Positions 2,154-37,408 of a DNA stretch of 64,000 nt are shown piece after piece. The stretch is from Bradyrhizobium sp. Ash2021 (GTDB lineage: Bacteria; Pseudomonadota; Alphaproteobacteria; Rhizobiales; Xanthobacteraceae), in the NCBI RefSeq assembly GCF_031202265.1, contig NZ_CP100604.1, positions 5,996,501 to 6,060,500 on the forward strand. The letters run 5' to 3'. Numbering within the stretch: position 1 is the first letter of the stretch; each line of letters opens with the position of its first letter. Position numbers and translations under genes: made by a program. Below the pieces are notes generated by a model that did no database searches, was not told where the DNA came from, and was given only the letters and a program-made list of their open reading frames with translations.

Positions 2154-3173
<1,020 letters not shown>

Positions 3174-7633: not shown

Positions 7634-8751
7634 AGCCGGCGATCAGGCGGTCTTTTTGGCGGCGGACCGCAATTCGTCGATCTTGCGTTCCCACTTCATG
7701 TCTTGGGCGAATGAAAGACACTCTTCCGGGCTCATAAACACCGTTTCCTTCTCGGCCGGATAGGCGCGATTCACGACGTCCTTCATGTATCGGGAGATCA
7801 CGTCTTCCATAATCGGTATCAGGTCGGTGTAGATGCGCGAATGCCGCGGCACGTGCTCTTCCCAGAGATGGAACAGATCCGAAGAGATAATGTGCACGCC
7901 ATGCGCGGCATTGCCGGCGCCGAGGCTGATGACCGGAACCGGCAGCGTCTGGGCCAGGTATTCGGCAACTTCCGACGTCGTCACTTCGCACAGGATCGAG
8001 AAGCAGCCGGCATCGACCATCGCCTTGGCATCTTCGACCATTTCCTTGGCCCGCTTGGCGGTCTTGCCTTGCGCGACAAAGCCGCCAAGCTGCGGCATGC
8101 GCATCGGGGTGATGCCAACATGGCCCTGCACCGGAATGCCGGCGCGCACGATCGCCTCAATATTCCTGGCGTGATACTTGTTGCCTTCGCATTTCATCAC
8201 CTCGGCATTGGCTTCGTGCACGAAACGACCGGCGTTGGCCACCGCCTGTTCCGGCGAAACGTGGAAGCTCCAGTACGGCATGTCGACCATGCGCAGGCCA
8301 TATTTGGAGCCGCGGTCGATCGCCTTCGACATCATCATGACCTCGTCGAAGCTCACCGAGACCGTGCTCTTGTGGCCGAACAGGATCATGCCGCCGGTAT
8401 CGGATACGCAGAGGATATCCATGCCGAGGCGGTCGGCAATGACCGCGGTGCGATAATCATAGGCGGCAAGCTGCGTGATCGGCTCGCCCTTCTTCATCTT
8501 CGCCATCAATGTATTGATGGTGACCTTTTTCCTTGCCGGCGCCTCAGCCATAACCAATCCCCCTTTCTCACCAAGCCGTTTCGAATGCGTTGAAGAACCC
8601 GGCAGCGATCTACGCCGCTCAGCCGTTTTTCGTCTGCAGGTGCATGGAGCGCTATGGCATCCGGTCCGTCAAATATCCAAAAACTATCGTATATGTGCCT
8701 TTGGCTATGATGGGCGCGATCGCCGATCAAGGCGGCCGCCGGATTGCAGCC
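7634..8751. repeat. 1.1-kb direct repeat carrying panB, copy A
   Basis: This 1118-bp segment recurs in the same orientation at 21857-22973. By eye the two differ only by one missing T before the panB RBS region and one C/T change about 80 bases upstream of panB. Identity stops abruptly on both sides. Confidence 0.9.
7643..8557 (-). CDS. panB: Ketopantoate hydroxymethyltransferase, copy A
   Basis: A 304-residue PanB, longer than the usual 260-280 because of a C-terminal extension. Visible signatures are KKGEPITQLAAYDYRTAVIAD, VSDTGGMILFGHKSTVSVSFDEVMM with the metal-binding region, VQGHVGITPMRMPQLGG, and CFSILCEVT with the catalytic-region Glu. PanB transfers the C1 unit of 5,10-methylene-THF to ketoisovalerate in pantothenate synthesis, so it also draws on the folate C1 pool assembled in this window. 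A strong RBS (GGGGGA) precedes the start. The predicted protein is identical to copy B at 21866-22780. panD is also in the window, panC is not. Confidence 0.93.
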   Translation of the reverse strand: MVMAEAPARKKVTINTLMAKMKKGEPITQLAAYDYRTAVIADRLGMDILCVSDTGGMILFGHKSTVSVSFDEVMMMSKAIDRGSKYGLRMVDMPYWSFHVSPEQAVANAGRFVHEANAEVMKCEGNKYHARNIEAIVRAGIPVQGHVGITPMRMPQLGGFVAQGKTAKRAKEMVEDAKAMVDAGCFSILCEVTTSEVAEYLAQTLPVPVISLGAGNAAHGVHIISSDLFHLWEEHVPRHSRIYTDLIPIMEDVISRYMKDVVNRAYPAEKETVFMSPEECLSFAQDMKWERKIDELRSAAKKTA

Positions 8752-9749
8752 CAGGCCGCGCGAGGGCGTCGTTTTGAGGTGTCGTAAAACGGTGTCGGCG
8801 TCAGACGAATATTGCGGAAGGTCCCCGTTGCATCGTGCAGGACGGTGTTGGGCAACGTGTCAACAAAGACATATCCAAGGCCGAGAATTCCACCGGCCGC
8901 AATGCTTTCGCAGGCCGACGTCACCGCGATCGCCCCGAGCGCGGACGGCCGTTGCAGGTCGCGCGACGGCTGCCAAGGCCACGACTGGCGATCCGCATCG
9001 GCCACGAACGAGACCATCATTATTGCGGGCTTGAGCGGGTCGGTGGGCCGGCTAAATTTACCCAGACCGATTTCAGAGGGCGAAACGGGTAATCGGAACT
9101 CATTGCTGAATAGAACAAACCCAGCCTCGATGCGGAGCATATCGGCCGCGATGAACCCCGCGGGTGCCACATGGGAGGACAGCGCGTCCCATAGCTCGCG
9201 CGCATGCCCACGGTCTACGATGATCTCGAACCCGGGTTCACCGGTATAGCCCAGCCGGCCGATCGTGCAGGGAATGCCCTCAAGATAGGCCCAATCGAAA
9301 GTAAAGTATTTGAGCGACTCGATACGACCAACATCGCCGAGCTTGCCCAATACGTCCAGTGCGCGGGGACCCTGCACCGCGAACGTCGCCCTATCTGCCG
9401 TCATGTCGACGACAGCAACGCCCGGACCCGAGCAGGAGAGCAAATCCAAAATGTCCTCTCGTCGCCCGCTCATCACATCGAACGAATTGGGCCCCGTCCT
9501 CCAAACGGTCCAATCGGCATCGACCTGACCACCAGAGCCGACGCGCAAGGCATAACGAATCTCCTTTTCCCTCAGCGAGGCCATCGATCTTCCGGTAAAT
9601 GTCTCTATGACGTCGCCTGCACGATTCCCTGTAATCCGCGCACATTCCAGGAACGAGAAATCGAACAGCGCGCAGTCCGTCCGGCATGTCGTTGCCTCGG
9701 TCGCGGGGTCGCCAAAATCGTATGTCAGCTTAAATCCCTCAAGTGCCAT
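8727..9749 (-). CDS. GcvT-like aminomethyl/methyltransferase, 3' end replaced
   Basis: The 340-residue product resembles the glycine-cleavage T-protein family: an N-terminal LFDFSFLECARITG segment, FAVQGPRALDVLGKLGD, GYTGEPGFEIIVDRGHARELWDAL and MLRIEAGFVLFSNEF, ending in the C-terminal barrel. Family members bind THF and pass methylene or methyl groups to it. The gene is not beside gcvH or gcvP, so a role as a THF-dependent demethylase of another substrate is plausible. The last eight codons lie inside the panB repeat, so the original C-terminus was replaced when the repeat arrived; the family core is otherwise complete. Confidence 0.75.
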   Translation of the reverse strand: MALEGFKLTYDFGDPATEATTCRTDCALFDFSFLECARITGNRAGDVIETFTGRSMASLREKEIRYALRVGSGGQVDADWTVWRTGPNSFDVMSGRREDILDLLSCSGPGVAVVDMTADRATFAVQGPRALDVLGKLGDVGRIESLKYFTFDWAYLEGIPCTIGRLGYTGEPGFEIIVDRGHARELWDALSSHVAPAGFIAADMLRIEAGFVLFSNEFRLPVSPSEIGLGKFSRPTDPLKPAIMMVSFVADADRQSWPWQPSRDLQRPSALGAIAVTSACESIAAGGILGLGYVFVDTLPNTVLHDATGTFRNIRLTPTPFYDTSKRRPRAAWAAIRRPP

Positions 9750-9772: not shown

Positions 9773-10527
9773 TCAGATGACATTTCCAAGAATGAAGGCC
9801 CCAACAACTACAAGCACGACCGATATGATCCAGCGTAAGGTCGCGCGCGGCACTAAATGCGCAAGCTCAAGGCAAGATCCGACAATCAAATACACTGCCA
9901 GAACGCCTCCCAACTCCAGGTTAAACTGTCCGTAGAGGACATTACCGAACGTTGCGACGATCGCGACCGGAAGCTGAATGACTTGACTCAGTCCGACGGC
10001 GACCAGCACCGGCACGCTCATGGAAATGATGATCGGCGCGACCACCAGCGGGCTCCCAGTGCCGCTGATTGATGATAAAAACCCGGTCCCCGCTCCGACG
10101 ATAAGCAGCCGCGTGTTGGATAGAGCGCGCTCGTGCCTGTCGGCCACCGCTTGCGCCCTTAGCGAATTGAGCCCCGACAAAACGTGAGAAGGCCAAGGCA
10201 CGCTTCTAGCAACAGCGGTTTGACGACGCTCACGGCCCATGCCCCGACGAACGCGGTCGGCGGCGCGCCCACGCACAGCCATGTCGCCATGCCCCAGCGG
10301 ATGGATCTGTTGTGCGCAAACACTGGCGTCGCGACGAGGCCCGACAAGACATACGCCATCATCGCCGCCGGAATGCTGATCTGAATTGGAACGTCGGCAA
10401 CAAACGCCAGCGCCGACACAAGAATAACACCGCCAATTCCGATGCACCCAATCATCAAACCTGACGTCAGCCCAAGAAGCACGATCCAGATCAGTTCCCA
10501 TATTGCCACCAAAGCATCGCATCCCAA
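9773..10527 (-). pseudogene. TauE/SafE-type permease, frameshifted
   Basis: The N-terminal half is in one frame (10527-10185, including GLMIGCIGIGGVILVSALAFV) and the C-terminal half in another (from SGLNSLRAQ to 9773, including GFLSSISGTGSPLVVAPIII). Both glycine-rich repeats typical of the TauE/SafE sulfite or sulfonate exporter family are present. The join needs a one-base shift near 10185. Either the gene is freshly broken or the sequence has an error. Sulfur-anion export would fit the sor genes further along. It is divergent from the LysR gene. Confidence 0.8.
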
Positions 10528-10662
10528 CCGCTTTGCACAATGACTTTATTGTGCGCTGCACCAAACACAGAGCCTATCGTACGTCGATCTCGATAAGTCT
10601 CGTCTATTTCAAAATTTCCGCTATTCTGACTTCGCACTCAACATCGCATCGAGCCCCTATAC

Positions 10663-21856: not shown

Positions 21857-22973
21857 AGCCGGCGATCAGGCGGTCTTTTTGGCGGCGGACCGCAATTCGT
21901 CGATCTTGCGTTCCCACTTCATGTCTTGGGCGAATGAAAGACACTCTTCCGGGCTCATAAACACCGTTTCCTTCTCGGCCGGATAGGCGCGATTCACGAC
22001 GTCCTTCATGTATCGGGAGATCACGTCTTCCATAATCGGTATCAGGTCGGTGTAGATGCGCGAATGCCGCGGCACGTGCTCTTCCCAGAGATGGAACAGA
22101 TCCGAAGAGATAATGTGCACGCCATGCGCGGCATTGCCGGCGCCGAGGCTGATGACCGGAACCGGCAGCGTCTGGGCCAGGTATTCGGCAACTTCCGACG
22201 TCGTCACTTCGCACAGGATCGAGAAGCAGCCGGCATCGACCATCGCCTTGGCATCTTCGACCATTTCCTTGGCCCGCTTGGCGGTCTTGCCTTGCGCGAC
22301 AAAGCCGCCAAGCTGCGGCATGCGCATCGGGGTGATGCCAACATGGCCCTGCACCGGAATGCCGGCGCGCACGATCGCCTCAATATTCCTGGCGTGATAC
22401 TTGTTGCCTTCGCATTTCATCACCTCGGCATTGGCTTCGTGCACGAAACGACCGGCGTTGGCCACCGCCTGTTCCGGCGAAACGTGGAAGCTCCAGTACG
22501 GCATGTCGACCATGCGCAGGCCATATTTGGAGCCGCGGTCGATCGCCTTCGACATCATCATGACCTCGTCGAAGCTCACCGAGACCGTGCTCTTGTGGCC
22601 GAACAGGATCATGCCGCCGGTATCGGATACGCAGAGGATATCCATGCCGAGGCGGTCGGCAATGACCGCGGTGCGATAATCATAGGCGGCAAGCTGCGTG
22701 ATCGGCTCGCCCTTCTTCATCTTCGCCATCAATGTATTGATGGTGACCTTTTTCCTTGCCGGCGCCTCAGCCATAACCAATCCCCCTTCTCACCAAGCCG
22801 TTTCGAATGCGTTGAAGAACCCGGCAGCGATCTACGCCGCTCAGCCGTTTTTCGTTTGCAGGTGCATGGAGCGCTATGGCATCCGGTCCGTCAAATATCC
22901 AAAAACTATCGTATATGTGCCTTTGGCTATGATGGGCGCGATCGCCGATCAAGGCGGCCGCCGGATTGCAGCC
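21857..22973. repeat. 1.1-kb direct repeat carrying panB, copy B
   Basis: 1117 bases nearly identical to 7634-8751, with a one-T deletion near the panB start and one C/T change. It is placed between fhs and the remnant-rich region. No IS ends or target duplications are visible at its edges. Confidence 0.9.
21866..22780 (-). CDS. panB: Ketopantoate hydroxymethyltransferase, copy B
   Basis: The predicted protein is identical to copy A (7643-8557), with the same start, RBS and 304-residue length; see copy A for motifs. This copy lies 87 bases upstream of the fhs start and reads into it, so both methylene-THF-consuming PanB and the formate-THF ligase may be co-transcribed. The very high nucleotide identity means a recent duplication or ongoing gene conversion. 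Confidence 0.93.
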   Translation of the reverse strand: MVMAEAPARKKVTINTLMAKMKKGEPITQLAAYDYRTAVIADRLGMDILCVSDTGGMILFGHKSTVSVSFDEVMMMSKAIDRGSKYGLRMVDMPYWSFHVSPEQAVANAGRFVHEANAEVMKCEGNKYHARNIEAIVRAGIPVQGHVGITPMRMPQLGGFVAQGKTAKRAKEMVEDAKAMVDAGCFSILCEVTTSEVAEYLAQTLPVPVISLGAGNAAHGVHIISSDLFHLWEEHVPRHSRIYTDLIPIMEDVISRYMKDVVNRAYPAEKETVFMSPEECLSFAQDMKWERKIDELRSAAKKTA

Positions 22974-28898: not shown

Positions 28899-29180
28899 TT
28901 AGCCGCCGTAGTTGTTTGTCAGGTAGTCGGCGATTACCTTGGCGTCGGCATCGTCGATCGGCGCGCCGAACGCCTTGCGCATCTTGGTAACCTCGGCATT
29001 CCAGCCCGCCGCGTTGAGGAACGGCGCGTTCATCGGGACATAGGCGAGGCTGTGGCAAGCTTGGCAGTTGGCCTCGACCTTTTCGACGCCGTCCGCCCTC
29101 TTTAGCGTGATTGTCGGCTCTTCGGCGACCGCGGGAAGCGTAATCAGTACGGCAATGAATGCAAAGACGCAGGTTCGCAT
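28899..29180 (-). CDS. sorB: c-type cytochrome, SorB-like subunit of sulfite dehydrogenase
   Basis: 93 residues with an N-terminal Sec signal (MRTCVFAFIAVLITLPAVAEE) and one heme-binding CQACH at about residue 39. A Met in the DADAKVIADYL-side helix region or MRKAFG may be the distal ligand. It starts 11 bases after the stop of sorA and is in the same orientation. SorB is the periplasmic electron acceptor of the SorA molybdoenzyme, passing electrons from sulfite oxidation to the respiratory chain. Confidence 0.88.
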   Translation of the reverse strand: MRTCVFAFIAVLITLPAVAEEPTITLKRADGVEKVEANCQACHSLAYVPMNAPFLNAAGWNAEVTKMRKAFGAPIDDADAKVIADYLTNNYGG

Positions 29181-29190
29181 GGTCTTCCCC

Positions 29191-30405
29191 TCAGGCCGTC
29201 AGAGTGAGGTTTTGCATGACGTTGTTATGGTATCCAGCCGGGTTGAAGATCAATTCGGCGGTCTGGCTTTGGCCGATCTTGTTTGTGGCGTTGACCATTA
29301 CGGTGTTCTTGCCGCGCTTAGCCGACAGTTCGAAGCTCCACGGACGGAAGGCGTAGTTGCCGAGATCCTGGCCCAACGTTGCATTCGACCACGTCTTGCC
29401 GCCGTCGGTGGAGACCTCCACTACGCGGACGCCGTAGCCGCCATCCCAGGCCAGTCCGCTGACCGTGACCTTCCCCGGTTTCACCTTGTCGCCGTCGTGA
29501 TGGCTGGTGATCAGCGAACTGACGACGATCTCCGTGATCGGCGTATTCGGTGCATATTCCTGTGAGGTGAAGCGCGCTACCAACGGGAATTTCCCGAGCG
29601 GAATGCGGTAGGCCGGGTTCATCCAGAACCCGCCTTGCGGCTTGGTGAGCGCGTTGATGGCGATGATGTGCTTGATCCAGTAGGTTCCGGTCCAACCGGG
29701 CACGACGATGCGCGCCGGAAAGCCGTTGAACTGCGGCAACGGTTGACCGTTCATTTCGTAGGCGATGATCGTCGACTCTTCGATCGCCTTCCACACCGGG
29801 ATGCTCTTGATGAAGTCCGGTGTTTTATCGTACGCGGGACCGTCGGCGCCGTTGAAGGCAATCTCGATCGCCTCCTTCTTCAGGCCGACCTTGTCGAGCA
29901 CGTCCTTGAGTCGGGCGCCTTTCCAGCGCGCGCAGCCCATGGCGCCGTACCCCCACTCGACGCCAGGGACGTGTGGATTCGACAGGCCGCGGCGATTGCC
30001 CGAGCATTGATTGACGGCGACCACTTCGACCGCCGGCATTTTCTTCAGGTCGTCGAGCGTAATCTCGGTCTGTCCGTTGGCGGCATCGCCACCGACCGCG
30101 ATCTTGTAGGTCTTGGCATCGACGTCCGGAATGTCGGAAAGGTGATAGCGGATAAAGAACTGATCGTTCGGCGTGATCGGCGTGCGGAAATATTCCAGCG
30201 GAGATTCGTAATTCGGCGGGCGATAGGAGAGCCTGATCAGCGGCTTCTTGCCCGGCAGCGCCTCCATGGCGGCAACGTCTTTGAGATCGCCGGGCACGCC
30301 CGGCGATAAGTCTACACCGGAAGCCTCGGCCAACTTCGGCAGACTCAATCCAGATACAGCAAGCGCGGCGCCTGCCGTGCCAATCAAATGGCGTCTTGTG
30401 AGCAT
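29191..30405 (-). CDS. sorA: Sulfite dehydrogenase molybdopterin subunit (SorA)
   Basis: A complete 404-residue sulfite-oxidase-family protein. A Tat-like signal (TRRHLIGTAGAALAVSGLSLP) is followed by the molybdenum domain with the ligand Cys in VVAVNQCSGNRRG. Further family motifs are GVEWGYGAMGCARWKGARLKDVL, GFPARIVVPGWTGTYWIKHI and, in the dimer domain, ISGLAWDGG-like VSGLAWDGGYGVRVVEVSTDGG. It oxidises sulfite to sulfate in the periplasm. Presence here points to sulfite release from an organosulfur substrate or from sulfur compounds. It is followed by sorB and preceded by a YeiH-type exporter gene on the same strand. Confidence 0.95.
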   Translation of the reverse strand: MLTRRHLIGTAGAALAVSGLSLPKLAEASGVDLSPGVPGDLKDVAAMEALPGKKPLIRLSYRPPNYESPLEYFRTPITPNDQFFIRYHLSDIPDVDAKTYKIAVGGDAANGQTEITLDDLKKMPAVEVVAVNQCSGNRRGLSNPHVPGVEWGYGAMGCARWKGARLKDVLDKVGLKKEAIEIAFNGADGPAYDKTPDFIKSIPVWKAIEESTIIAYEMNGQPLPQFNGFPARIVVPGWTGTYWIKHIIAINALTKPQGGFWMNPAYRIPLGKFPLVARFTSQEYAPNTPITEIVVSSLITSHHDGDKVKPGKVTVSGLAWDGGYGVRVVEVSTDGGKTWSNATLGQDLGNYAFRPWSFELSAKRGKNTVMVNATNKIGQSQTAELIFNPAGYHNNVMQNLTLTA

Positions 30406-31894: not shown

Positions 31895-32626
31895 TCAGCT
31901 GGCGGACGCGCGTGCTGCCTCCCCCGGGCCCCGAGGCTCAGCGCGCCCTTCCCGTTTCAGCCGATCCGCCAGCTCCTGCAGATTCTGAACCTCATAAGTC
32001 GGCGTCATCCCAATCTTCAGCATCGGTTGGCGCGCGCGATTGGTCCACGCGCATTTCAGTTCCTGGCGAACCGCGCCGACGATTTCCCAGAAGTGTCCGG
32101 TAACCCAAAGGATCTGTTCCTTTGGACAGCCAGCCCGGCGCATGCCAAGCTCATAGACCTTAGGCGAAGGCTTGAACGCCTGAGCCTCATCCCCGCTGCT
32201 AATGATCTCGTCCAGATAGGGGAAGGTCCCCGCAAACTTGCTGTGCTCCTCAATCATCTTTTTCGTCGGGTTGGCAACGATCTTCAAGGTGTGCCCTTGT
32301 TCCTTGAGCGATTTCAGGGCGCCGACCACATCCGGGTAGGCCCGCAGCTTGTGATAATTGGCATTAATATCCTTGATCGCCGCTTCGGACAGCTCGACGT
32401 GATGCTTGTCGAGCGCCCAGCGGAGGCAAGCCTCATTGAGGCCCGGGTGCGGCACGAACGAGTCGGCCAGCGTCGTGTAGAACATTGCCCATTTCTGGTG
32501 CGTCCGCCAATCCTGGGCAATCTTTTGCGCGGTGTGCGCCTCGCCGACGTACGGCTCGATCACGTCTGCGATTGAATAATTGTCGACAAGAGTGCCCCAA
32601 GTGTCGAACAGTAATGTCATTGCCAT
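31895..32626 (-). CDS. HAD-superfamily hydrolase, haloacid dehalogenase (type II)-like
   Basis: 243 residues from the ATG at 32626 (GGAG seven bases upstream). Motif I LLFDTWGTLVDNYS has the nucleophile Asp, KIVANPTKKM holds the region of motif II, and FKPSPKVYELGMRRAG has the motif III Lys; the last motif is weak (WVTGHFWEIVGA instead of the usual SSNxWD). It resembles L-2-haloacid dehalogenases, but the altered last motif makes the substrate uncertain. A broken copy with two in-frame stops lies at 43029-43194, and both have a similar Crp-like site upstream, so the gene belongs to the inferred regulon. Confidence 0.82.
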   Translation of the reverse strand: MAMTLLFDTWGTLVDNYSIADVIEPYVGEAHTAQKIAQDWRTHQKWAMFYTTLADSFVPHPGLNEACLRWALDKHHVELSEAAIKDINANYHKLRAYPDVVGALKSLKEQGHTLKIVANPTKKMIEEHSKFAGTFPYLDEIISSGDEAQAFKPSPKVYELGMRRAGCPKEQILWVTGHFWEIVGAVRQELKCAWTNRARQPMLKIGMTPTYEVQNLQELADRLKREGRAEPRGPGEAARASAS

Positions 32627-32805
32627 AAGCAATCTCCAGTGTGGCTACGTCGCTCACGGCCCAGACGATTCCGCGACCGCGCGACTACCCCTGCGCCATA
32701 TCAAAACGACCCGACCGTCCTCCCCTAGTATTGGCGGAACTGCATCGGCCCCTCAGAAGGGCGGCAAGCGTGTAGACATCATCCTCTCGACGGTTGCGGC
32801 GTCGC

Positions 32806-32949: not shown

Positions 32950-33714
32950 CTAGCGTGCCTCCTCGAGAAAGCTTTCCAGCACCGCGCCCTGAATCTCGCC
33001 GAAACTCGCCGAGCTCAGCATCTTCAAGTTGCGCGGGCGCGGCAGCGCGACATCGATCACTTGCTTGACCGCGGCCGGCGTGTTCGTAAGGAGGATAGTC
33101 TGGTCGGCCAGCAAGATCGCCTCCTCGATCTCGGTCGTCACAAAGATCGTGGTTACCGGTTCATCCTCGAAGACACGCAGCAGATACTCCTGCATCAGTT
33201 CGCGTGTCATCGCGTCGAGGCCGCGAAAAGGCTGGTCAAGCAACATTACCTTGGGACTGTTTATCAGCGCCCGGGCAAGCTCCGCCCGCCGCCGCATGCC
33301 TCCAGATAGTTGGTTCGGGTACTTCCCCTCGAGGCCGTCGAGCCCGAGTTTCGCGAGCAGGGCACCCGCCTGCCGCCGCACATCGGGGCCGCGTGCCTTG
33401 CGGTTCATCGGTCCGAACAAGACGTTGGCCATGGTCGACTTCCATGGGAAGACCGCTGTTTCAGGGAACACGACGAGGCGGTCCCAACCAGGTCCTTGAA
33501 CCGGCTGTCCGTCGACCAGTATCTCACCTTCGCTCGGAGATTCATATCCGGCCACGAGGTCGATGATCGTCGTCTTGCCGCAACTCGACGGGCCCAAGAG
33601 GGCGGTGAACCGCCCCGGCGCGATATCGAGATTGCATGCCAAAAGCACGTCTTTCGTGCTGAACCGTTTCGTGACATTGCGGAACTGCACGCGGCTCGGG
33701 ATTGCGGCGGTCAT
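32950..33714 (-). CDS. ABC transporter ATP-binding protein (nitrate/taurine/sulfonate type) with altered Walker B
   Basis: 254 residues with Walker A GPSSCGKTTI, signature LSGGMRRRAELARAL and Walker B VMLLDQPFRGLD. The catalytic Glu after the Walker B Asp is Gln (codon CAG), which in most ABC ATPases strongly lowers hydrolysis. The H-loop position reads TTEIEEAI rather than THDxxEA. The C-terminal LPRPRNLKMLSSASFGEIQ is typical of SsuB/TauB/NrtD relatives. Upstream are a second ATPase tail and a substrate-binding fragment but no permease, so the transporter is incomplete and this protein may be non-functional. Confidence 0.82.
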   Translation of the reverse strand: MTAAIPSRVQFRNVTKRFSTKDVLLACNLDIAPGRFTALLGPSSCGKTTIIDLVAGYESPSEGEILVDGQPVQGPGWDRLVVFPETAVFPWKSTMANVLFGPMNRKARGPDVRRQAGALLAKLGLDGLEGKYPNQLSGGMRRRAELARALINSPKVMLLDQPFRGLDAMTRELMQEYLLRVFEDEPVTTIFVTTEIEEAILLADQTILLTNTPAAVKQVIDVALPRPRNLKMLSSASFGEIQGAVLESFLEEAR

Positions 33715-33950: not shown

Positions 33951-34214
33951 TCATTCAGTTGACACATGGGCGCGCTGCATGGCCACGGCGTCGATTTTGT
34001 CGGCTAGCATATTGTTGACAAGCGCCATTCCGCTCATCGAGTCGAAACGCTCGACTTCGACGTTGGGAAGGTAGGGTTTCCACAGTTTCGCTCCAATGAC
34101 GATCGTTACTACCCAGGTCGGGGTCAGCGGCTGGAAGCCGATCACGATCTTGAGCTTCTCGTCCGAAACCAATTTCTGCGACAATGTCGCAGTGCTACTT
34201 GCCGCGAGGCACAC
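33951..34214 (-). pseudogene. ABC substrate-binding protein fragment
   Basis: KIVIGFQPLTPTWVVTIVIG, AKLWKPYLPNVEVERFDSMS and GMALVNNMLADKIDAVAM match the first third of a nitrate/sulfonate/taurine-type periplasmic binding protein. The signal peptide and the remaining two thirds are missing. Confidence 0.7.
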
Positions 34215-34224
34215 CAGTCTATGG

Positions 34225-35016
34225 CTACTCGGAACTGAGCAAGTTGCGGCGCAACACGACCAGCCGACGCTTGCCCAGCTTCACTATCCCCAGCTTCACT
34301 ATCCCACGACTCTGTAAACCAGCCAGTGCATTCGTGACCCATTGCCGTGACGCGCCGACCATGGCGGCAAGATCCTCATGCGTCAGCGGTGCGTCAATCA
34401 CGAAGCCGCCTTCCTGGGGTATGCCGTATAGCTCGCAGAGTATGTCGAGCAGATGCGCGACCCGTTCGCCAACCGATTGCGTGCCGAACATCTGTATCAG
34501 TCGCGAGAGCCACTGCACCTTGAAACTGAGCGCCTCGACGACGCCTATAGCCAATTCGGGAACCGTGGCAACGAGGGTCCGCATATCGGTATCGCGAATA
34601 ACGAATGCTTCGGTCGAGGTAACCGCTTCGCAGGACCAGCCGTAGGCGCCGCGACCGAATACGCCGAGCGCGCCGAGCAAGTCGCCACCTTGCCAATAGG
34701 CAAGCGTTATCTCGCGGCCTGATGCCGCGGAGTAGAAAGCGCGCGCGGTGCCCCTTCGGATGATGAAAACCCGCTCCTGCAGATCGCCTTGCCGGAACAG
34801 CGACTCGCCGGGCTTGTAGACTCGCCGATGCGTCATAGCGGTCAGCTTTTCCGGAGCCAGCGCCATGAGCTGGTCTAGGATGCTCGGCTGACGAAGCGGC
34901 CAAGGCGGCACCGCGCTAAGCTGGGTATCTAAACCTCTGCCGCGCTCTTTCGGTCCGCAATCTCGTCTACGGGAAATGACATCTCCGCCAAGCCGAACAT
35001 CCCTTAACTGAACCAT
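34225..35016 (-). CDS. Crp/Fnr-family transcriptional regulator (copy 3)
   Basis: Start ATG at 35016 has GGAGG nine bases upstream; the longer frame to 35064 lacks one. 263 residues: a cNMP-binding-like barrel (YKPGESLFRQGDLQERVFIIRRGTARAFY, EITLAYWQGGDLLGALGVFGRG), a dimerisation helix, and the HTH VGASRQWVTNALAGLQSRGIV. The C-terminus carries a tandem GIVKLGIVKLG from a small direct duplication. A perfect 20-bp palindrome lies 47-66 bases upstream and could be autoregulatory. It neighbours the selenoprotein operon and is the best candidate for its regulator. Confidence 0.88.
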   Translation of the reverse strand: MVQLRDVRLGGDVISRRRDCGPKERGRGLDTQLSAVPPWPLRQPSILDQLMALAPEKLTAMTHRRVYKPGESLFRQGDLQERVFIIRRGTARAFYSAASGREITLAYWQGGDLLGALGVFGRGAYGWSCEAVTSTEAFVIRDTDMRTLVATVPELAIGVVEALSFKVQWLSRLIQMFGTQSVGERVAHLLDILCELYGIPQEGGFVIDAPLTHEDLAAMVGASRQWVTNALAGLQSRGIVKLGIVKLGKRRLVVLRRNLLSSE

Positions 35017-35062
35017 ATTCTCTTGCCTCCGACCCAGATCGAGGCGATACTCGCATACCGAC

Positions 35063-35082
35063 AATCGCGCTATAGCGCGATT
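35063..35082. promoter_or_regulatory. Perfect 20-bp palindrome upstream of the crp gene
   Basis: AATCGCGCTATAGCGCGATT is exactly self-complementary and sits 47-66 bases before the Crp copy 3 start. It differs from the TGTCAA-N4-TTGACA class. It may be an operator for another factor or a promoter-proximal hairpin. Confidence 0.5.
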
Positions 35083-35165: not shown

Positions 35166-35396
35166 TCACGAGAGGCGAAGGAGTTCGGTCAGGCGATCAA
35201 CCTCGAACCCGATCACCAACGTCCCATCAATCAACGTTGTCGGCAAGGTCCGTGATCCGAGGCGCACGAGTTCCTGGCGGGCGGCGGCATCCTTGGTGAC
35301 GTCGCGCGCGGTAAAGGCGATGCCATTCCGCGACAGGAAATCCATTTCCTCATGGCAGACATGGCATCCCGGACCATGGAAGACCACTATATCCAT
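35166..35396 (-). CDS. Small glutaredoxin-like thiol-redox protein
   Basis: 76 residues. The N-terminus (DIVVFHGPGCHVCHEEMDFLSRNGI) has a redox CxxC (CHVC) after beta-strand 1, followed by ARDVTKDAAARQELVRLG, the cis-Pro in RTLPTTLIDG, and IGFEVDRLTELL, the complete glutaredoxin fold of the NrdH/Grx class. The ATG overlaps the TGA stop of the selenoprotein gene by one base and has GGAGG upstream, so translation is coupled. It is the likely thiol partner that reduces, or is reduced by, the Sec/Cys centre. TrxB-type reductase may recharge it. Confidence 0.85.
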   Translation of the reverse strand: MDIVVFHGPGCHVCHEEMDFLSRNGIAFTARDVTKDAAARQELVRLGSRTLPTTLIDGTLVIGFEVDRLTELLRLS

Positions 35397-36781
35397 CACT
35401 CTTCCTCCACAACATGAGTCATCCCGTAGCCGCTCTCGCCATAGCCGCGCGGGACGATGCCGCGCGCCAGAATCCAGTTCGGATCCTCCGTCCGATCGGT
35501 CACTTCGATGAGTCGGTCGCGCGCGGCAGCCAGCAGGCTACCTACGCGGCTATCGAGCCAGAGCCAGTCATTCGCCTTAGCAGCGTTCTCGAGCGCGCTC
35601 TCGTCTTCCGCGAGACGGGCCTCCAAGCAAAACGCCTTGAGATCGTCGACCGACAGCCGAACGAACTGCTTCTCGCTGATAGGCTCGGCCGCGCCTCGTT
35701 CGCGAGGCACGATCTTCTCGCCGCTTACGAAGCGGTGCACCACGTTTGCGGCGTCGATAACGGTTTCGGGAGTGACCCCTGAGAACCCTACCTGCGTTCG
35801 TCCGCCATAAAGGTCGCAATAGCGACGATGCGAACCAGTGAGCCGGAGAAGCTCCTGACAGATGGCCGCAAAGTCGCGGTCATAAGGCCGCGGTCCAACC
35901 GAAATCGGCTGACCGCTGTCAGCGGCCGCGAGGATCGTCTCAAGATCGCAGCCGCTCGGTCCGCAACTCCGGCCGAGCGCCTGATGCTTGGCATCGAGAT
36001 GCTCAAGCTCCGGCGGCAAGATCAAATCCTCCAACACCGGCCGCTCCGATCGACTTAGCAATTCGAGCGCCTTGCGGATGACCAGACGCTGCACAGAGAC
36101 GTTCCGCGGCGCCCCCAGCGGGCGGCCAAACGGAAAAGGTACCCAAAGCGCCCGCGGAGGGCGGACCGCCTCAGTGAACCGTCGGACAAGCGAAATCGAG
36201 GTCGTCGCTATCCCGCAAGCTTCAATCTGGCGCTGGATCACACCCACGGTGTGAGAGCAGAGCGGTCACGTAGGCACCAGGATAGCAATGTCCACTTGTG
36301 CTGCCTTGAGAAGATGGCCGACGGAGGGGGCGCTGTCGTCGATCAACTTGTCGAACTGAAAAATAGCCCCCATGAAAGTGTAGAAGTTTTCGGCGACGGC
36401 ACCGATGACCCGCTCTTTTGCAAGTTCGCGCAACCGGTCGACTGGCATGACGACGTTGACGTCCATGGCGAAGCCGGTGCGATCCCAATTCGTGCTGACA
36501 TGCGAGAACGTGAGCTCGGCCGGGTCGGTGTCGATTGGGATCGCCCGGTAGCTCGGATCGCCGGCAGGATTGGCGAGATCGAATGGCTTGTCGCTTCTAC
36601 GGATCAGGCCGGAAGTCGTAATGACAGCCACCTTGGACTCGGAAAGCGGTTTGGACAGCGCTGTCCAAGGCGGATCTCCTTCCGAGCGGCATTGGAAATT
36701 GCCGAGAAATTGACGAGATTCTTCGTCGAGGTCTTCGAGACGGGGCACCGTAATCTCCCGGATGAACTCACCATTGAGCAT
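35396..36781 (-). CDS. GrdB-like selenoprotein (glycine/sarcosine/betaine reductase selenoprotein B family) with in-frame TGA
   Basis: Reading through TGA at 36268-36266 as selenocysteine gives 461 residues in one frame. Sec172 lies in DIAILVPT-U-PLCSHTVGVI, a UxxC motif equivalent in position to the Sec of clostridial GrdB (U-G-T-C). Family features continue on both sides: N-terminal DPPWTALSKPL and VAVITTSGLI, SHVSTNWDRTGFAMDVNVVMP, ERVIGAVAENFYTFMGA, and after Sec WVPFPFGRPLGAP and VSVQRLVIRKALELL. The C-terminal 200 residues (including CDLYGGRTQVGFSGVTPETV) are an extension. A bSECIS-like hairpin follows the TGA. GrdB proteins cleave C-N bonds with thiol reductants; the substrate of this aerobic-type relative is unknown. 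The RBS is weak. selA, selB and selD are not in the window. Confidence 0.85.
36238..36268 (-). promoter_or_regulatory. UGA codon with bSECIS-like hairpin
   Basis: On the minus strand TGA is followed by 18 bases and then a GUG triloop closed by seven perfect pairs: TCACACC (36254-36248) with GGTGTGA (36244-36238). The bacterial SECIS model expects a short stem-loop with G at the start of the apical loop about 16-37 bases after UGA; this fits. Whether it binds SelB is inferred. Confidence 0.65.
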
Positions 36782-36812: not shown

Positions 36813-36828
36813 TGTCAAGTTGTTGACA
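36813..36828. promoter_or_regulatory. Crp-family-like operator upstream of the selenoprotein gene
   Basis: TGTCAAGTTGTTGACA has perfect outer halves (TGTCAA/TTGACA). Its centre is about 40 bases before the start codon at 36781, so it probably overlaps the promoter. Each TTGACA could also serve as a -35 hexamer. Confidence 0.6.
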
Positions 36829-36998
36829 GCCTCGTCACCCGCGAGAGCGCCTTGCTCGACACCGGGGAGACGGTTTGCCCCGTGAGCCGACCGCCCAGGA
36901 GATACTCGCTGTCGGCGCGGATCTCGTGACTTTTAGCGGCGACAGCCGAGCGAAATCGGCCGAGAGAATGCTGGGAGCGATGCGGTGCGCGCGCGGGG

Positions 36999-37408
36999 TC
37001 ACTTGAGCCCTCGCGGTCGGCTACGCCCGCCGGCGGGCGTAGCCGTGGCATGGCTGCGGATCGTGTAGTTGATGGGGGTCCTTCGGCACGGATAAGTTCG
37101 AACCCGAGCTCCTCCTCGCGACAGTTGACGATGAACGACATGCGGAGCGTCTCGAAGTCCTTTCTCGAGTCGAAGCCGAGCACCTTCACGTATTTCTCGG
37201 GATGCGCCGCGCGACAGGCGTTGACCTCGAGCATCACGCCGGCCGGGTCCGTCACGTCGAACATCGGCGTGCCCGACATCTCCCAAAACGTGTTGCGAGG
37301 GTGCGGACCGTCCGTGAACTCGATGGCGACTGCCCAACCCTGGCCGAGCTTGATCTCGTCGTCCGTGAGATCCGGAAGAAATGAGAACTGACCTTGCATG
37401 AGCCGCAT
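36999..37408 (-). pseudogene. cbbS: Rubisco small subunit, damaged
   Basis: RLMQGQFSFLPDLTDDEIKL, WAVAIEFTDGPHPRNTFWEM, GTPMFDVTDPAGVMLEVNAC and FDSRKDFETLRMSFIVNCRE are form I small-subunit sequence. About ten residues are missing after LTDDEI (loss of the helix before GWAV). A one-base slip in a C5 run near 37075 shifts the end (PINYTIRSHATATPAGG). It starts 25 bases after the cbbL stop, the normal cbbLS order. Confidence 0.88.

Follow-up and report, generated by a model that had tools for sequence, protein, structure and literature searches.

The closest described relatives of the protein analysed here are the selenoproteins of the proline and glycine reductases: PrdB (TIGR04483), which works together with PrdA, and GrdB (PF07355, TIGR01918), the selenoprotein B of glycine/sarcosine/betaine reductase. 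GrdE and PrdA are presumably both covered by the profile PF09338. A further GrdB-like selenoprotein, FarB of the Synergistota fluoroacetate reductase, is described in passages of PMC10838667 as a protein proposed to attack the C-F bond; its operon includes an oxalate/formate-type MFS transporter and is induced ~5000-fold by fluoroacetate, and FarB works with FarE and, it is proposed, with GrdA and GrdC, in strict anaerobes. Across the relevant passages of the open-licence literature on GrdB-like proteins, PrdB, D-proline reductase and haloacids, and glycine reductase and dehalogenation, FarB was the sole related case recognised (PMC10838667; 2025 review, PMC12366334). Selenoproteins named "proline reductase PrdB", with a UxxC motif and listed under pfam07355 in the GOS table, are also reported as abundant in sea water, with 42 "proline reductase" genes in the Sargasso Sea, 235 in GOS and 6.4% of 4324 in 2021 (sections of PMC1088965, PMC2398784, PMC9402790). 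A place among the commonest sea-water selenoproteins makes little sense for a clostridial enzyme of amino-acid fermentation. Selenoproteome reviews of 2022 and 2026 list PrdB and GrdB in the passages concerned, and neither those passages nor the corresponding ones of the marine surveys describe the two-domain form reported below.

The gene lies on the reverse strand of a 64,000-nucleotide stretch of the Bradyrhizobium sp. Ash2021 genome, called the window throughout, whose features are collected in Table 1. It forms a single frame of 462 codons with one internal stop, a TGA at codon 172, followed by six sense codons (P L C S H T) and a GTG that opens an ORF of 283 amino acids. An earlier note, made from the DNA letters alone, had joined the ORFs 36781-36266 and 36247-35396 across this TGA and foreseen that ordinary gene calling would split the gene; translation upholds the coordinates, and a mechanical ORF list does give two ORFs. 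Because homologues open at codon 12, where M12 is nearly invariant in the alignment, and because GGGAG stands 6 bases ahead of the GTG at that codon, translation likely starts at GTG 36748 instead of ATG 36781, so that the gene would run from 36748 to 35396. Its predicted product is one intact selenoprotein of ~450 residues.

Table 1. Features of the selenoprotein gene and its surroundings in the window.
Feature	Position	Strand	Basis
Selenoprotein gene: PrdB/GrdB-like N-domain and predicted helical C-domain	35396..36781	-	Homology, TGA column, AlphaFold
Predicted Sec codon TGA (U172), opening the UxxC motif	36266..36268	-	TGA column, Cys variants
bSECIS-like hairpin, 7 bp, 3-nt loop beginning with G	36238..36254	-	Pairing and covariation
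Crp/Fnr-type regulator, directly beside the Sec gene	34225..35064	-	Pfam; 36% to L042 regulator
SBP-like fragment	33951-34214		No Pfam match; named from sequence only
ABC transporter ATPase	32950..33714	-	Highest-scoring models of nitrate and taurine type, none above its cut-off
Haloacid dehalogenase type II, diverged	31895..32632	-	TIGR01428 136.5 bits, cut-off 125.4
Thioredoxin-disulfide reductase	2154..3143	-	TIGR01292 376.5 bits, cut-off 343.45

Among NCBIfam models the protein lies nearest to PrdB, which it matches at 143.5 bits against a cut-off of 300 in an alignment that crosses the TGA (residues 37-245). GrdB-type models reach 47.6-54.1 bits, all below cut-off (47.6 against 602.2 for TIGR01917, 51.3 against 65.45 for TIGR01918). 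The Pfam profile GRDB (PF07355) is matched at 40.1 bits (gathering threshold 22) over profile positions 219-347 only, the last third of the profile up to the selenocysteine (Sec), and it is matched by all 59 full-length members examined at E<=0.01. The description "GrdB-like" in the earlier note thus holds for the superfamily, but not for the family, where the nearest model is PrdB and the GrdB models stay under cut-off. No other Pfam family was found at E<=0.01 in any of the 59 members, and the RdhA-type domain was absent; a corrinoid reductive dehalogenase of the RdhA kind was rejected, GRDB being the sole Pfam match. The AlphaFold model (mean pLDDT 85.7, pTM 0.86) shows an alpha/beta domain, in which helix 173-188 starts right after the Sec, and a C-domain made of helices at ~304-440. 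This C-domain matches no Pfam or NCBIfam model, and within it E310 and W406 are conserved in 59/59 members, with R328, E387 and T411 nearly so. At least 235 codons follow the TGA in 89 of 90 copies (L055 has 73), in a set of loci that were found using the post-TGA half as query.

PrdB of Bacillota resembles the window protein in its N-domain, with UxxC in the same place; its matches begin around query residue 37 and stop at 248-261, before the C-domain. Proteins of ~320 residues annotated as "glycine/sarcosine/betaine reductase selenoprotein B family protein", present at 26 loci, share the same N-domain (~28-36% identity over residues 28-249), carry Cys at the Sec column and have no match to the C-domain. 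In a FastTree phylogeny of the shared domain, with the 26 Cys paralogues as outgroup, 82 Sec proteins group together, the window gene sits with those of L040-L042, and Peptoclostridium PrdB attaches to the Sec group with a joint node support of 0.977. Profile searches of the whole Bradyrhizobium genome (9.7 Mb, two contigs) detected neither PF09338 nor PF04723 (GrdA), while a positive-control record gave three PF09338 matches, one of them just before its prdB, and one PF04723 match; the absence of grdA and grdE pointed out earlier is borne out. The locus therefore differs from GrdB and PrdB both in model scores and in partners, the former working with GrdA and a PF09338 protein. FarB, compared by description only, shares with it membership of the GrdB/PrdB group and offers a proposed cleavage of the carbon-halogen bond of a 2-halo-acid, but in the passages of PMC10838667 it uses FarE and is without the CxxC residues. 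Since it falls under the model cut-offs, has an additional C-domain and comes from a genome with no detected GrdA or PrdA/GrdE-type protein, the window protein is, judged by sequence, neither GrdB nor PrdB, but a PrdB-like domain with an added helical C-domain, which apparently works without these partner proteins. Titles of marine lineages are frequent among the records of the related loci, and the marine "PrdB" of earlier surveys, set beside this family by description, may be the same protein.

Wherever a stop stands at this codon, it is TGA. From 458 relatives located on genome contigs, 80 loci (L040-L119) were kept, of which 79 align across the TGA codon, yielding 86 copies that all have a stop there; L112, the 80th, aligns only beyond that codon. 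Together with L010-L013, and with the window copy included, the stop is TGA in 90/90 copies and never TAA or TAG, which argues against chance. In a later draw of 30 further alphaproteobacterial loci, 29 carry TGA at this codon and the remaining one TGC; L190 turned out to be L080 again (100% identical), and the other 29 are at most ~81% identical to earlier loci over their best stretch. In all, 118 of the 118 distinct copies having a stop at the codon-172 column have TGA. Cys replaces Sec in three full-length versions, the TGC case (L214) and two stop-free relatives (G1480, G1294), and among the shorter Cys paralogues recovered by an order-wide search the Cys codon is TGC at 19 loci and TGT at 7. 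Conserved residues flank the TGA on both sides.

Downstream of the TGA, a bSECIS-like hairpin has its best 7-bp stem register at +14 to +30, with a loop that starts with G in all 88 distinct sequences. Paired cells amount to 87.2%, against a mean of 80.9% and a maximum of 83.0% in controls with synonymous codons shuffled inside each column, and compensatory cells number 62, against a control mean of 30.8 and a maximum of 40; none of 2000 such controls matched the observed pairing or compensatory count. All seven pairs form in just 28 of the 88 distinct copies. These sequences also served to choose the register, so the cleaner figure is that of the further set of 29 copies, where the same positions are 85.7% paired. 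The corresponding positions in 25 distinct Cys paralogues are 66.9% paired, and fully paired in none. L214, which is full-length with Cys, retains pairing at 6 of the 7 positions, and this may be a relic or simply reflect constraint on the protein.

The machinery for selenocysteine insertion is encoded close by: selD, tRNA-Sec, selB and selA sit 2-7 kb left of the window (window start 5996501). In this segment (C1:5989942-5994638), selD scores 421.5 bits (cut-off 125) and selA 550.2 bits (cut-off 267.9), the tRNA-Sec scores 75 bits and shows, by eye, TCA in its anticodon loop, and the selB ORF (in L009), named by sequence, clusters with an L042 protein that scores 416.9 bits. The tRNA-Sec gene (L009:6038-6129, reverse strand) overlaps the 3' end of selB (L009:6073-8079, reverse strand) by ~57 nt, with the selB stop inside the tRNA gene. 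Among relatives, SelB exceeds its cut-off in 38 of the 40 genomes scanned, which stand for half of the 80 loci; in control genomes it does so in 2 of 14. The earlier note had placed the TGA at the selenocysteine position, with a Cys three residues on, and had proposed a search for this machinery and an alignment of homologues for U or C; both speak in its favour, the machinery and homology across the TGA (the PrdB model and 79 of 80 loci) being found together. In light of the evolution of the codon, the hairpin and the nearby sel genes, it is close to certain that UGA is decoded as Sec in the window gene.

What the protein does is approached best through its neighbours. In L040, L041 and L042 (two MAGs titled Hyphomicrobiales and Xanthobacteraceae, plus Afipia sp. 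1NLS2) the gene order comprises a divergent Crp regulator, the Sec gene, a haloacid dehalogenase type II, a thioredoxin reductase, a small ORF, a symporter and selB. A second Afipia-like genome (L151) has the same arrangement, almost identical to that of L041, and selA is also seen in these two Afipia loci. The dehalogenases score 209-223 bits (cut-off 125.4), and that of L042 matches along its length the L-2-haloacid dehalogenase 1qq5 (E 2e-81), which we take to be DhlB of Xanthobacter; the L042 thioredoxin reductase scores 377.5 bits (cut-off 343.45), and the symporter, of acetate/monocarboxylate type, exceeds the SSS superfamily cut-off only, below the specific transporter models. Taking the immediate same-strand downstream ORF (start at -30 to +450), found for 71 of 86 copies, a haloacid dehalogenase comes next after the Sec gene in eight (L040, L041, L042, L043, L065, L083, L092, L101), and TIGR01428 at E<=1e-5 picks the same eight among the 51 downstream ORFs scanned. 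A profile built from six of these eight finds nine HAD-II ORFs among 5582 (80 loci, 1.24 Mb). The eight linked Sec genes fall in four parts of the tree, and these neighbours suggest that some family members strip halogens from small acids.

In the window itself the dehalogenase lies on the strand of the Sec gene, with two genes separating them; its sequence relatives in the PDB are L-2-haloacid dehalogenases, with motif differences noted by eye. By rough arithmetic, a dehalogenase neighbour within 5 kb would arise by chance in this genome as a ~1% event. Given the two intervening genes, the divergence of the dehalogenase and the nine type II dehalogenases over cut-off in the genome, its proximity alone is a suggestive, not a strong, link. 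One of the nine lies 6.3 kb right of the window (G000:C1:6066789-6067364, 210.9 bits). A regulator homologous to the Crp/Fnr-type one of the window flanks the Sec gene in L040-L042, and the window thioredoxin reductase, 32 kb from the Sec gene, has as its homologue in these loci the second gene after the Sec gene. The C1/formate island of the earlier note is present as such, with FTHFS, FolD, an MTHFR-like protein and formate dehydrogenase in the window, but what recurs beside close relatives is a haloacid dehalogenase, thioredoxin reductase, Crp regulator and sel genes. Elsewhere, SelD precedes the Sec gene in 4 of 52 upstream ORFs scanned, and in L154 selA, selB and a selD-like ORF lie directly downstream.

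Other features of the window deserve record. A RuBisCO small-subunit-like ORF (36815-37408) lies just upstream of the Sec gene, and a GcvT-type folate-binding protein (8727-9749), under the GcvT, TMAO-demethylase and DMSP-demethylase cut-offs, stands among the THF genes. An exact direct duplication of 932 bp (7634-8565 and 21857-22788, 14.2 kb apart), which holds a ketopantoate-hydroxymethyltransferase-like gene, looks recent.

Read as a whole, the evidence makes it tentatively the best account that the gene encodes an intact selenol reductase that acts without partners on small 2-substituted carboxylic acids, here most likely 2-halo-acids. UxxC at the start of a helix, a thioredoxin reductase in the cluster and the lack of a pyruvoyl partner would suit a selenol reductase that depends on thiols and requires no Schiff base, and with FarB as precedent, reductive dehalogenation of 2-halo-acids is rated the likeliest single function. 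For the window subfamily this would mean removal of a halogen ahead of the hydrolytic dehalogenase, an assignment offered at somewhat less than even confidence; a different small-acid substrate is nearly as likely. Under this proposal, the attack on the alpha-carbon or the halogen would come from Sec172, which stands at the N-terminal end of a helix within a Rossmann-like domain, Cys175 would break the resulting Se-C or Se-X bond and free the acid with H replacing the halogen, and thioredoxin with the linked thioredoxin reductase would reduce the Se-S bond, after which the haloacid dehalogenase would hydrolyse the remaining halogen. As the substrate has no amine that must be bound, the enzyme would do without a pyruvoyl partner.

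The main alternative, a serious contender in our estimate, is a selenoprotein reductase of another small molecule (a thiol-disulfide, a peroxide, a 2-hydroxy- or 2-keto-acid intermediate, or a C-S or C-N bond), the dehalogenase neighbours being incidental or confined to few lineages. Neighbours do vary: of the 71 downstream ORFs in the first set, 63 fall outside the HAD group, although some may be spurious, and the next genes seen include D-2-hydroxyacid dehydrogenase, 3-hydroxyisobutyrate dehydrogenase, 2OG oxygenase, RecQ and SelA (clustering with the L041 protein), with arylmalonate decarboxylase also among neighbours and an ORF that by eye resembles TfdA/TauD adjoining two Cys versions. 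A HAD-II ORF was found in 0 of the 30 further alphaproteobacterial loci, whose flanks span ~1.5 kb, seven of them without a downstream ORF and one being L080 again. An organosulfur substrate would also be possible, given the SorA-type sulfite dehydrogenase of the window (28899-30405; best model 432.5 bits, under a cut-off of 600), which adjoins a small ORF that looks cytochrome-c-like by eye but matches no Pfam family, and the TauE/SafE exporter (9773-10564), which together may give the island an organosulfur side. Against this alternative, eight of the nine HAD-II matches occupy one position, directly after the Sec gene, under Alphaproteobacteria, Rokubacteria and Deltaproteobacteria-type titles, a pattern hard to obtain by chance.

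A subunit of D-proline or glycine reductase whose partner is encoded elsewhere in the genome would agree with the PrdB score over residues 37-245, with the GRDB match throughout the family and with the 32-37% identity of Bacillota PrdB over the N-domain, but it is improbable: beyond the negative searches in the own genome, PF09338 exceeds its cut-off in 1 of 31 genomes or assemblies (G400, with a sub-threshold match in G814) and PF04723 in none of the 31, many of them MAGs that may be incomplete, and the long extension past the TGA, in loci found with that half, is also at odds with it. Less probable still is a pseudogene or sequencing error in which the TGA is a true stop and only 171 residues or two proteins are made, for although the ORF list splits the gene and nearly all database homologues start after the TGA, this reading is refuted on sequence evidence by the same-codon TGA in 118 distinct copies, the natural Cys variants, the conserved flanks, the covarying hairpin and the nearby sel genes.

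The database homologues show how the family has been recorded. A search that returned 118 homologues among 8000 scored candidates from a set of 5.8 billion proteins found 117 that start at query residues 174-194, directly after the TGA, and therefore lack most of the N-domain together with the active site; the sole exception, P0114, is a Cys paralogue. P0099 and P0102 carry a C-terminally fused glutaredoxin domain that may act as an internal reductant. The Sec gene is present in adjacent copies, all with TGA, in L071, L087, L102 (three copies), L106 and L111, the L013 genome (G257) has four TGA-bearing superfamily sites, three matching the N-domain only, and many short Sec paralogues lacking the C-terminal half occur among further relatives. 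Six loci (L069, L073, L086, L094, L099, L107) come from MAG records titled Bordetella parapertussis, a name that looks doubtful.

These observations describe what is, on present predictions, a widespread and mostly mis-annotated selenoenzyme family related to the proline and glycine reductases, with members in records titled Proteobacteria, Chloroflexi, Deltaproteobacteria, Actinobacteria and Rokubacteria. Deposited proteins of the whole family miss the N-terminal half with its active site, and the label "proline reductase" may be wrong for a protein that has two domains and comes from genomes in which no PrdA or GrdA is detected. It is conceivable, if rather doubtful, that the family constitutes a new class of reductive dehalogenase free of B12 and pyruvoyl groups, a thioredoxin-fed single selenoprotein with an extra helical domain that would act on (poly)halogenated acids in aerobic and other bacteria and has stayed hidden as fragments or filed as proline reductase. 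Hydrolytic dehalogenases handle fully halogenated compounds poorly. If the proposal is true, the family would open a reductive path for di- or trichloroacetate and similar compounds. The haloacid cluster supplies a directly testable substrate; a passage of PMC6100074 attributes to Afipia a part in the decrease of haloacetic acids in tap water.
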